In this document: positions 32,966 through 36,245 of the stretch, piece by piece | Position numbering within the stretch: the first letter of the stretch is position 1 | Layout of the letters: every line of letters starts with the position of its first letter | Assembly (NCBI GenBank): GCA_944381485.1 | Contig: CALWLI010000006.1 | Location: 16,639-80,638, forward strand | Length of the DNA: 64,000 nucleotides | From: an uncultured Lachnospiraceae bacterium | Lineage (GTDB): Bacteria; Bacillota; Clostridia; Lachnospirales; Lachnospiraceae | Direction of reading: 5' to 3' | The notes under the pieces: generated by a model | Told to the model about the DNA's origin: nothing | Database searches by the model: none | What the model saw: the letters and a program-made list of their open reading frames with translations, nothing else | Translations under genes and position numbers: made by a program

Positions 32966-33135
32966 GCGCATCCGAGGTTTTCTGCTAAAGCCACTTCCTT
33001 CGCCCAAACCTTTTAACTTATCTCGCTTTTTCAAAACTCGGGAAAACTTTCCTCAGACAATTGAAAAAGCTCGAAGTTAATAAGGCCTGTGCTCAGTCAG
33101 TAGACGGCTTAATTCGCAAAAAACCTCGGATGCGC
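32966..33135 (+). repeat. Structured intergenic element, copy 1 (170 nt)
   Basis: An outer 16-bp perfect stem (GCGCATCCGAGGTTTT 32966-32981 with 33120-33135) encloses nested pairings: AAGCC (32988-32992) with GGCTT (33106-33110), CCTTTTAACTT (33009-33019) with AAGTTAATAAGG (33074-33085, one bulge), GCTTTTTCAA (33025-33034) with TTGAAAAAGC (33061-33070) and a short GGAA/TTCC tip hairpin. A second copy lies at 36064-36245 in the same orientation. The core sequence is conserved while the outer stem is completely different, so pairing and not sequence is kept there. Candidate non-coding RNA, transcript-end structure or small non-autonomous mobile element. Confidence 0.8.
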
Positions 33136-33163
33136 ATATTTATTGACTGCATTATATTTATCG

Positions 33164-34378
33164 TTAGAGTGAGAATCTCCGCTTTCGCGGGGATCTTTCT
33201 TTTTCCGTATCCTTTTCTTTCAAGCCGAATCTCTCATGTCTTAAATCCATGAGCACAGAGAGGACCTCGGGATTTTTTAACTCCATAGCCGCCTCCGTCA
33301 TCTTTGATGAGTAATCCTCGGTGACAAAATCCATTGAAGCCAGCTCCTTAAGTCTGCTCATGGAGATCTCATCTGACTCATAGTGTCTTATGAGAAGCTC
33401 CGTAAATTTTTTGGCGTGAAATTTCAGATAGGATATGTATTTTTCTTCGGCTTCCTCCGAGAGATCACAGGGAGTCTCGAGGCGGCAGAGAGCAAGCTCA
33501 CACACAGTCTCCTCCGGCTCCAAGGCCTCCGCATAGGAAAAGAGAGAGTCATAGCGCTTTATCTGAAACATGGTGTTTGCAAAGCAGTTTCTGTACATAT
33601 AGCCGCTGCCCTGCATGTCTCTCACGGTGATGCGGGCAGGAGTGTTCTCCTTGGAGTTCTCATAGTACTCAGGGAATATGAGCCTGTATTTTACAGGGGC
33701 TTTTTCGCCGGGAGCCTGAGTACTCAAGGCACCCTCTCTGTCCGTTTGCTCGAAGCTGTCTATCCCTCCTATGCCTATGTTGTTGCATTCGGGAAGGAGA
33801 TCTCCCGAAAGGTCCGAGGGGGCGACTCTCTCCGGATATATGGGGGCTGCCGAATCTCCTGAGGAGTTATTTTCCCTGTAAGCCTCCCTGTAGGTAAGCT
33901 TCAGGGGAAACCTTATGTTTACAAGCACATCATTTAGAGAGGAGCGCACTCCCTCCGTCACTGTCATGTCAAGGTTACGCACTCCGGTGCAGCCTGTAAA
34001 CATTCCGAAGCCAAGGTCTATGGTAGTCGAATACATGCTTATGGAGCTGAGCTTTTCACAGCCGTAGAAGCAGTATCTTCCCACTTTGAGGAGAGTTCGA
34101 GGAAGGGAAATTGACAGAAGCCTCTCACAGATGACCTCCTCTGATTTGTCAATTTCAGCCTCCCTATCAGGGCTGCATGCCCTTACCGATAGGTCGTCGG
34201 TGTCAAATATAAAGGCATTGTCATACATGACAAGCTCGGAACGAGAGAAGGCATAGGGGGCAAGCTCTGTGACCGGCCTGTTATTTATGAAGGCGGGAAC
34301 AGTCACCTCCCCTGAGGGGGAGAGACAGCGCCTTATTATTATGCTGTTGTCCTTAGTGTAAGAAAATATTATCTTCAT
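33164..34378 (-). CDS. BspA-type leucine-rich repeat protein
   Basis: 404 residues from the ATG at 34378 on the minus strand, chosen because the open frame above it has no better start. The protein has short LRR_5 (BspA-type) repeats, seen in LLSISLPRTLLKVGRYCFYG-CEKLSSISMYS and GMFTGCTGVRNLDMT (about residues 95-150), with the CxxL and GCxxL pattern. There is no signal peptide, so a cytoplasmic location is likely, unlike secreted BspA proteins. The C-terminal third (about 290-404) is helical and charged. It is convergent with the MoxR gene. A link to the MoxR/VWA pair is inferred from position only. Confidence 0.7.
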   Translation of the reverse strand: MKIIFSYTKDNSIIIRRCLSPSGEVTVPAFINNRPVTELAPYAFSRSELVMYDNAFIFDTDDLSVRACSPDREAEIDKSEEVICERLLSISLPRTLLKVGRYCFYGCEKLSSISMYSTTIDLGFGMFTGCTGVRNLDMTVTEGVRSSLNDVLVNIRFPLKLTYREAYRENNSSGDSAAPIYPERVAPSDLSGDLLPECNNIGIGGIDSFEQTDREGALSTQAPGEKAPVKYRLIFPEYYENSKENTPARITVRDMQGSGYMYRNCFANTMFQIKRYDSLFSYAEALEPEETVCELALCRLETPCDLSEEAEEKYISYLKFHAKKFTELLIRHYESDEISMSRLKELASMDFVTEDYSSKMTEAAMELKNPEVLSVLMDLRHERFGLKEKDTEKERSPRKRRFSL

Positions 34379-34546
34379 AGCTAATATAATAGACAGGGCA
34401 AAGTTAAAATACAAGGGAAAAATGAAAACCTGATGAGGCCTGAAGGAAAGGTTGGAGTCCGGATATTCGTATATCTGTTGAGAAAACAGAGCGTGAAGAA
34501 AACCTATAGGAACAGATGAAGCAGATTATTAAGAAGGGAGGAAAAA

Positions 34547-35206
34547 ATGAAAAAAATATTTAAAGCCGTGATCATAGCCGCAGGAGCTGCAGCAGTCCTT
34601 TTTTCTTTAAATGAGGCGGCCTTTCGTATCAGAGCTTCAAAGGAACCGGGAAATGTTATATACACCATAAGGGGAGAGGCGGTGTTGGATAAGTACTATG
34701 AGAACTTGGACGAACTCATAAGAGATTCCGATATAATCGTTCTTGGAGAATGTGTGAAGGAAAAAACCTTTCGGTCGGGAAGCTTTGATTGGACAGAATC
34801 CGGCTTTGAGATCCTGGAGAGTCTTAAGGGAGAGCTTAAGACAGGGGACAGGGCGGATATTGATATAATGGGAAGGAACATGACTGTCAGGGATTATATG
34901 AGTTTGTATAAAGAGCTTCCCTACGAGCTTAAGGAGAAGGCGGGGGAGATAAAGAACACAGATATCATAAGCATGGTTTATCTGTCCGACAGGATACCTT
35001 TGGAGGGTGAGCGGGCAATACTTTTTTTGAATGAGGATGAGGATACTCCGGGGAAATATTGGAGGACAGGCTCTTATCAGGGAGCCCTTTATGAGGAGGA
35101 TCAGGGAGATGAGAAGACAGAGGCGGATGAAGAGACTTATACCGGGGCCTTGGGGTCCTACAGCCTCAACGAAATCAAAAGAATGATTGAAAATACAGTG
35201 TTCTGA
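34547..35206 (+). CDS. Secreted or membrane-anchored protein of unknown function
   Basis: 219 residues. An N-terminal hydrophobic segment (VIIAAGAAAVLFSLNEAAF, about 8-26) looks like a signal peptide or anchor. The remainder holds the pattern LIRDSDIIVLGECV followed by GFEILESLKGELKTGDRADI, a layout (strand, loop, 'LKG-LK-GD') seen in many small exported proteins of Firmicutes without known role. A good RBS (GGGAGG) precedes ATG 34547. No operon partner is evident; the next gene starts 69 bp downstream with its own strong RBS. Confidence 0.7.
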   Translation: MKKIFKAVIIAAGAAAVLFSLNEAAFRIRASKEPGNVIYTIRGEAVLDKYYENLDELIRDSDIIVLGECVKEKTFRSGSFDWTESGFEILESLKGELKTGDRADIDIMGRNMTVRDYMSLYKELPYELKEKAGEIKNTDIISMVYLSDRIPLEGERAILFLNEDEDTPGKYWRTGSYQGALYEEDQGDEKTEADEETYTGALGSYSLNEIKRMIENTVF

Positions 35207-35275
35207 TAGTAATATATAATCAATGGTATAAATACAAACTGCATGGGGAGTTTTATTTCCCTAAAAGGAGGTTTT

Positions 35276-36052
35276 ATGGCACTTGCATATAATCATGATA
35301 ACAAGGAATTCCATATTCATGTATGCCCGGGACAGGTGGGAAGATATGTGCTTCTCCCCGGTGACCCCGGAAGATGTGAGAAGATAGCGAAATACTTTGA
35401 CGAGCCTGAGCTTGTGGCTTCAAACAGGGAGTATGTGACTTATACCGGCAAGATAGACGGAGTGCCTGTAAGCGTCACCTCCACAGGAATAGGAGGAGCT
35501 TCCACAGCTATTGCGGTGGAGGAGCTTATTCACTGCGGAGCGGACACCTTCATAAGAGTCGGAACTTCCGGAGGAATGAAGGAGGATGTAATGGGTGGAG
35601 ATGTCTGCATAGCTACCGGAGCCATAAGATTTGAGGGCACATCCAAGGAATATGCGCCTATTGAGTGGCCTGCGGTTTCAGACTTTGATGTCACCGCAGC
35701 CCTTAAAGCCGGAGCTGACAGGCTGGGACAGAGAAGTCATACAGGAGTGGTCCAGTGTAAGGACAGCTTCTACGGACAGCACAGCCCTGACAGCATGCCT
35801 GTAGACTATATGTTAAACGACAAGTGGAATGCCTGGATGAGGCTTGGAGCTCTCTGCTCTGAGATGGAGTCGGCAGCCCTATTCACCGTTGCGGCGGCCA
35901 GGGGAGTGAGAGCGGGCTCTGTACTCCTTGTCATAGCCAATCAGACGAGAAGAGCCATGGGACTTGAGGATCCTCAGGTATATGACGTGGATATTCCCAT
36001 AAAGGTGGCTATAGAGGCAATCAAAGACCTGATCAAAAAGGATAAGCAGTAG
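35276..36052 (+). CDS. udp: Uridine phosphorylase
   Basis: 258 residues from ATG 35276, 6 nt after AAAAGGAGG. It belongs to the trimeric/hexameric nucleoside phosphorylase-I family: [19 protein letters not shown] (phosphate loop), RVGTSGGM and the base/ribose-binding [12 protein letters not shown] and SEMESAALF segments. [12 protein letters not shown] favours uridine phosphorylase over purine nucleoside phosphorylase. It splits uridine with phosphate into uracil and ribose 1-phosphate, which the phosphopentomutase encoded next (deoB) turns into ribose 5-phosphate. The structured repeat copy 2 lies between the two genes. Confidence 0.85.
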
Positions 36053-36063
36053 CTTCATATCTG

Positions 36064-36245
36064 TTTAAATATAAAAGCTTTTTCGCTGAAAGCCACTGCG
36101 TTTGGTCCTGCCTTTTAACTTACCTCGTTTTTTCAAAACTCGGGAACAGGCGTTCCCTCAGACAATTGAAAAAACTCGAAGTTAATAAGGCCCGGCCTCA
36201 CTCCGTAAACGGCTTAATATCGCTCAAAAGTCTTTTATATTTAAA
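36064..36245 (+). repeat. Structured intergenic element, copy 2 (182 nt)
   Basis: The outer stem is TTTAAATATAAAAG-CTTTT (36064-36082) with 36226-36245, paired throughout apart from one bulged T. Inside, AAGCC pairs with GGCTT, CCTTTTAACTT with AAGTTAATAAGG, GTTTTTTCAA with TTGAAAAAAC, and the tip is a GGGAAC/GTTCCC hairpin. Compared with copy 1 the third stem shows a C-G to T-A compensatory exchange, the tip has compensatory changes and the outer stem differs almost everywhere. It begins 12 nt after the udp stop, in the same orientation relative to the upstream gene as copy 1. Confidence 0.8.

Follow-up and report, generated by a model that had tools for sequence, protein, structure and literature searches.

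A dispersed extragenic palindrome with a conserved tip and variable arms in a Lachnospiraceae genome, probably kept at the DNA level

Two copies of a structured palindromic element lie about 3 kb apart in a 64,000-nucleotide stretch of DNA (the window) from an uncultured Lachnospiraceae bacterium (GenBank assembly GCA_944381485.1, contig CALWLI010000006.1, positions 16,639 to 80,638), and they raise the question of whether their matching arms record selection on an RNA fold or a property of the DNA itself. A first-pass annotation of the window had taken compensatory change between the copies as a sign of selection on the fold, and had offered a new non-coding RNA, a 3'-untranslated-region (3'-UTR) structure or a small non-autonomous mobile element as explanations. 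Its interpretation was partly supported. The last option agrees with the reading we favour, namely that this is probably a dispersed, non-coding palindromic DNA repeat behaving like an old non-autonomous mobile element. The matching arms look like a DNA property more than proof of a selected RNA fold, and in our reading the element is a dispersed extragenic palindrome of a new kind, similar to miniature inverted-repeat transposable elements (MITEs) or repetitive extragenic palindromic (REP) sequences.

Copy 1 occupies positions 32966..33135 on the plus strand, which is the tip-sense strand, and is one of four copies in its own genome (G000). Its left outer arm (32966..32981, plus strand), 16 nt long and specific to this copy, has its reverse complement in the right outer arm (33120..33135, plus strand). 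Between them lies a core that is common to the copies in the genus (32987..33113, plus strand; AAAGCC ... GGCTTAAT, alignment A1), within which the conserved tip (TCAAAACTC-hairpin-TCAGACAATTGA) is found at 33031..33064 (plus strand). Copy 2 (36064..36245, plus strand) was found between genes for phosphorylase-superfamily (deoD-like) and metalloenzyme-superfamily (deoB-like) proteins and has an AT-rich left outer arm (36064..36082), a right outer arm with one bulged base (36226..36245), a core with the same boundaries (AAAGCC ... GGCTTAAT; 36089..36218, alignment A1) and the tip (TCAAAACTC-hairpin-TCAGACAATTGA) at 36133..36169, all on the plus strand. Both folds are strong, at -67.8 kcal/mol for copy 1 (folded as 32966-33137; z-score -9.11) and -58.3 kcal/mol for copy 2 (36064-36245; z-score -7.54), with none of 200 shuffled sequences as stable in either case. 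This bears out the earlier description of two real structured copies with a common core and nested stems. The outer stem of copy 1 is, as described, an uninterrupted helix of 16 pairs, and that of copy 2 contains the bulge reported for it, with 18 pairs in the predicted fold in place of the 19 claimed. The two outer stems are also, as had been stated, unrelated to each other in sequence, each being self-complementary, while the core is common to both. The element as a whole is a single imperfect palindrome, since copy 1 and its own reverse complement (L005) match at 70% over a length of 170 nt. The absence of a known RNA family was confirmed, since Rfam gave no match at gathering thresholds in the whole window. 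When five loci, including two with the window copies, were scanned permissively (E up to 10), seven low-scoring matches came back, all to unrelated families. Skipping-rope RNA was considered as a lead, and no Rfam family of any name was found to fit.

A copy was found in three of the 25 genomes examined from the same genus, namely G000 (four copies in an assembly that is 91% complete), G020 (four sites, one match being a palindrome that meets its own complement) and G023 (eight copies). Each of the four copies in G000 is matched in G020 by one at the same site with similar flanks, L016 being the one that corresponds to copy 1. The copies in the window's genome look old rather than active, and nothing suggests recent movement there, though presence varies among species: at eight loci of G000 and G020 (L144-L151), whose flanks resemble those of G023 copies, there is no tip. 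The deoD-deoB site of copy 2 is occupied in the same orientation in G020 and inverted in G023, where the core is reversed between the arms and the switch falls in AAAAGC on both sides (L025 compared with L023 and L024). An alignment of the sixteen copies from the three genomes, for which L017 was lengthened by hand, showed a mean column identity of 82% and a consensus of 47 pairs, 20 of which include a two-sided change that keeps the pairing. The arms beyond the core differ from copy to copy, being GC-rich in L001, L010, L018 and L020 and AT-rich in the others. The element half was more conserved than the near flank in 11 of 12 comparisons (87-96% against 74-94%).

The tip recurs far beyond the genus. 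It consists of TCAAAACTC, a small hairpin and TCARACAATTGA, placed on top of copy-specific palindromes, and its apex forms an unpaired, mirror-like loop (AAAACTC / TCARACA) around the small hairpin. A search of the same family found four of 397 genomes positive, including G000 and G023 and with one at the cut-off, and revealed a longer palindrome in another genus (L085, which is off by one base in alignment A2) as well as a tip within a terminator-like hairpin (L086). The latter, from a metagenome-assembled genome of the Lachnospiraceae (L086/L113), has the tip in the hairpin loop directly after a stop codon and is without long arms. When species genomes were scanned for TCAAAACTC-N(8-26)-TCARACAATTGA, 46 matches in 45 stretches were recovered. 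Arms scoring above a 99% shuffle threshold, in a score that excludes the imposed tip stem, accompany 33 of the 46 and none of three matches in viral contigs. These 33 span seven phylum-level groups: Bacillota, Thermodesulfobacteriota, Nitrospirota and Bacteroidota by looked-up lineage (Lutispora, Anaerovibrio, Smithella, Thermodesulfovibrio and Fluviicola), and Gracilibacteria, Elusimicrobia and Ignavibacteriae by record title. Seven genome matches (L103, L104, L111, L115, L117, L119 and L128) had been judged by eye to be due to chance, leaving a set of 39 copies. The later arm score agreed on all ten rejections made by eye, seven genomic and three viral, and six of the copies kept (L099, L108, L113, L118, L127 and L135) fall below it. 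A model of the tip found 12 of 398 genomes of the same phylum positive, G000 included, nine of them with more than one match, and five chosen carriers had 39, 4, 22, 35 and 6 matches (35 in Lutispora saccharofermentans). The copies are almost all intergenic, in either orientation, and one (L105) overlaps an open reading frame (ORF) of 91 codons. A single 56-base tip query against viruses and plasmids returned one plasmid and two phage records, at E of about 4. Across the genus copies the tip loop stays unpaired, as it does in the set of 39, where however most of its bases are imposed by the search pattern itself. That it is both unpaired and conserved means that something probably recognises the tip, and suggests a factor acting in trans on the loop.

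Whether the arms are matched for the sake of a transcript can be judged from their mismatches. Pairing that is selected in a transcript should tolerate G-U and not A-C. Isolated mismatches in the arms, counted in alignments made without a bonus for G-U, were G·T in eight cases and A·C in eight among the 16 genus copies, and 25 and 41 among 31 other copies; the corresponding counts for the outer arms of 22 Lutispora copies were 15 and 8. The sums, 48 and 57, show no excess of G-U, in contrast to 12 G-T and one A-C in the predicted acceptor stems of 24 tRNAs, where the filter scored G-T as paired and so favoured it somewhat. Both window copies follow a stop codon in the direction of that gene, as had been noted, but this does not extend to the family: the upstream neighbour of the 39 copies runs in the same direction in 19 cases and the opposite in 15, with none called in five (from mechanical ORF calls, at least one of which, L101, is wrong). 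Together, the lack of a G-U excess relative to tRNA and the mixed gene orientation favour maintenance of the palindrome at the DNA level, probably by template switching during replication. The alternative of a structured non-coding RNA or 3'-UTR element, whose transcript would be bound by a protein at the hairpin tip and whose stems would be kept by selection for RNA pairing, is unlikely. It draws on the strong folds and the position of the two window copies, on the greater number of G·T in the Lutispora outer arms, and on covariation in the tip stems (0.552 over 39 tip sequences), which far exceeds that of shuffled sequences (mean 0.148) and of stems slid out of register (at most 0.241). Apart from the mismatches and the mixed orientation, it is opposed by the inverted core at one site, by the patchy presence among relatives and by the signals near the copies, which were not clearly above chance for promoter-like (8 against a mean of 5.0, standard deviation 2.2) or terminator-like patterns (3 against 3.4). 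Two-sided changes are abundant, yet for these reasons neither selection on the fold nor the RNA explanations of the first-pass annotation found support. Further copies in relatives, no Rfam match and the presence of covariation were in each case the opposite of what it had said would count against the element.

Two other explanations were weighed. In one, the copies would be MITEs of an ordinary DDE transposase, their terminal inverted repeats being very long, and the conserved tip would mark the inner repeat end of a lost autonomous element. The copies examined are indeed inverted repeats, outer ends recur among some copies of the same genome (CTGTTGCCC..GGGCAACAG, CTGTTGACT..AGTCAACAG and GATTTTACTGCAATAA), and Lutispora has further copies in which the tip is enlarged or deleted. 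We regard this as rather unlikely, because a common tip with outer ends that differ between lineages is the reverse of what a MITE family should show, and because neither a consistent target duplication (five copies) nor, in the Lutispora assembly, a gene-bearing element with such ends was found. It is also improbable that the core inserts into palindromes that are already present, such as bidirectional terminators, so that the copy-specific arms would be the target's own hairpin. The tip of L086, in the loop of a terminator-like hairpin, and the occurrence of AAAGCTTTTT in the arms of many genus copies would fit such insertion. However, some sites without their core would be long palindromes lacking a loop (25 bp per arm in L020), which are unlikely to have existed beforehand, and the empty valS-like and mgsA-like sites, though diverged, contained no matching palindrome by eye.

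Under the favoured reading of an old mobile repeat kept at the DNA level, template switching at replication would repeatedly copy one arm onto the other, so that the arms stay complementary. It may extend the arms into flanking DNA and could also flip the spacer, as at the deoD-deoB site. Published work describes template switching between inverted-repeat arms that homogenises the arms and inverts spacers (PMC8604942) and that can make compensatory changes (PMC8794818); the first paper also reports short inverted repeats in proteobacteria that are likewise more conserved than their flank. Such a process would account for arms that match and yet are unrelated between copies, for the inverted core, and for an element more conserved than its near flank. 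The outer arms of Lutispora, of which 22 of 35 copies were usable (13 without anchors were left out), vary copy by copy and mostly in step: position 10 is AT in 6, GC in 4, CG in 4, TA in 2 and unpaired in 6 of the 22, and position 12 is AT in 10, GC in 10, TA in 1 and TG in 1. Among orthologous copies, four two-sided changes that keep the pairing were found in 338 compared pairs, drawn from seven overlapping comparisons. During mobilisation, a DNA-binding enzyme acting in trans would read the apex on the folded single strand or a cruciform, and the apex would thereby stay unpaired and conserved.

Several observations weigh against this reading. The inverted core in G023 could instead be a separate insertion, the orthology of L149 is doubtful, and the empty sites are too diverged to reveal the exact target or a palindrome that was there before. 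The 338 ortholog pairs also include 15 one-sided changes (five G·T, four A·C and six of other kinds) and one pair that a double change left unpaired; with these and the overlap of the seven comparisons, there is still room for selected compensation. Two of the five covariation measures (pairs with a two-sided change, and further pair types) were no higher than in shuffled sequences, the Lutispora outer arms lean towards G·T, and the commonest isolated arm mismatch, C·T (20 of 44 among the genus copies and 42 of 190 among the others), fits neither explanation of the pairing. No mobilising enzyme was found in a search for Y1 transposases (PF01797) in 12 carriers. Nine of these had a match (fragments only in G020 and G023), G000, G425 and G777 had none, and some of the genes in G748, G790 and G530 are of RAYT size. 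RAYT or IS200-type transposases were rejected as mobilisers, as no tip with arms was present at any of 30 Y1 loci, where two tip matches with three mismatches had arm scores of 10 and 12, compared with 17-32 in known copies. A search of the one Lutispora genome with one end sequence gave 43 matches (up to one mismatch) and no inverted pair 0.8-3 kb apart, and thus no gene-bearing element with the family's outer ends. Five complete Lutispora copies inspected by eye for target duplication included a possible 6-bp repeat in one (L387) and none in four. Relative to the leading strand, orientation was biased in Lutispora (25 copies opposite and 9 the same; p 0.009) and leaned the other way in the genus (2 opposite, 7 same). 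Anaerovibrio showed no significant bias (15 and 7), and the remaining copies were evenly split (11 and 11); these counts omit copies with low GC skew (one in Lutispora, five in the wide set). With significance in Lutispora only and no single rule, a replication-strand bias was rejected as a general sign of single-strand transposition.

More tentatively, the copies may belong to a class of DNA elements, spread over several phyla, that take single-strand or cruciform form and in which only the apical unpaired motif (AAAACTC / TCARACA) is constant. A putative enzyme family would read this motif, template switching would keep rewriting the arms, and the element would be a mobile hairpin without conserved ends. 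The combination of variable ends and a conserved apex is unusual and inverts the common pattern. Integron attC sites are folded single-strand hairpins with a conserved structure and a variable stem, marked by R and L boxes and recognition by IntI. Unlike attC, the element has its conserved bases at the apex. MITEs and repeats of the enterobacterial repetitive intergenic consensus (ERIC) or RU type are likewise non-coding intergenic palindromes of about 100-350 bp in several copies, but here the arms and ends vary between lineages and even between copies while the tip is constant, and the five copies inspected showed no consistent target duplication. REP and REPIN sequences, mobilised with TnpA-REP (RAYT), resemble the element in being extragenic, dispersed, imperfect palindromes. 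According to PMC8266576, the REP transposase recognises a single strand in folded form with conserved bases left unpaired, and REPs are 20-50 nt long and carry a GTAG-type tag; a cognate Y1 transposase gene in the genome, in many cases close to the repeats, is a further mark of these systems. By comparison, the palindromes found here are about 150-350 nt long (about 170 nt in the genus, up to about 340 nt in Lutispora) with the apex as their conserved part, they have no invariant GTAG-type tetranucleotide beside the hairpin (alignments A1 and A2), and no tip with arms accompanied the 30 Y1 loci. G-T pairs, which are frequent in the stems of GTAG repeats and were taken as a hint of RNA (PMC3733652), are not in excess here. 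Template-switched quasi-palindromes share the homogenisation of arms and the inversion of the spacer (PMC8604942 and PMC8794818) but are the product of a mutation process, not an element, and at about 150 bp the inverted spacer here far exceeds the yeast cases published (2-5 substitutions). The literature covered, which leaves out most subscription journals, gave no description of the tip in work on REP, REPIN or ERIC-type repeats, and searching by motif strings found nothing relevant by title.

The element looks like a natural case in which covariation would suggest a conserved RNA though the pairing seems to be a matter of DNA, and it may be useful both as a warning and as a negative control in the discovery of non-coding RNAs. 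If the tip is read by an enzyme, its distribution over genomes offers a route to that enzyme.

Proteins flanking the window copies match models for AAA ATPases, BspA-type leucine-rich repeats and the phosphorylase and metalloenzyme superfamilies; the names deoD-, deoB-, valS-, mgsA- and thrS-like are our own reading of the sequence. A terminator-like stem with a T run lies just 3' of copy 1 (33175-33208), such sites being no more frequent in the region than expected by chance. Two short ORFs were found in G023 between two oppositely oriented copies 1.1 kb apart (L130:298-1350). This pair adjoins a gene that reads like methylglyoxal synthase, and the neighbouring G000 locus is without both copies. 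G530 contains nine long and 12 short partial copies and no gene-bearing element; pieces of the element, mostly its left half, are also scattered there on their own as degenerate repeats of about 30-75 nt (L221-L232). A Lutispora subfamily (L307, L314, L317, L323 and L405) has the tip hairpin replaced by a similar loop of about 70 nt with an inverted repeat inside. Also in Lutispora (L263-L297, for example L273, L274, L284 and L285), several copies contain a second small repeat (TGCCCCAGGGCA...TTGCTCC) within their arms, and some adjoin repeats of other families, giving nested, modular repeats.

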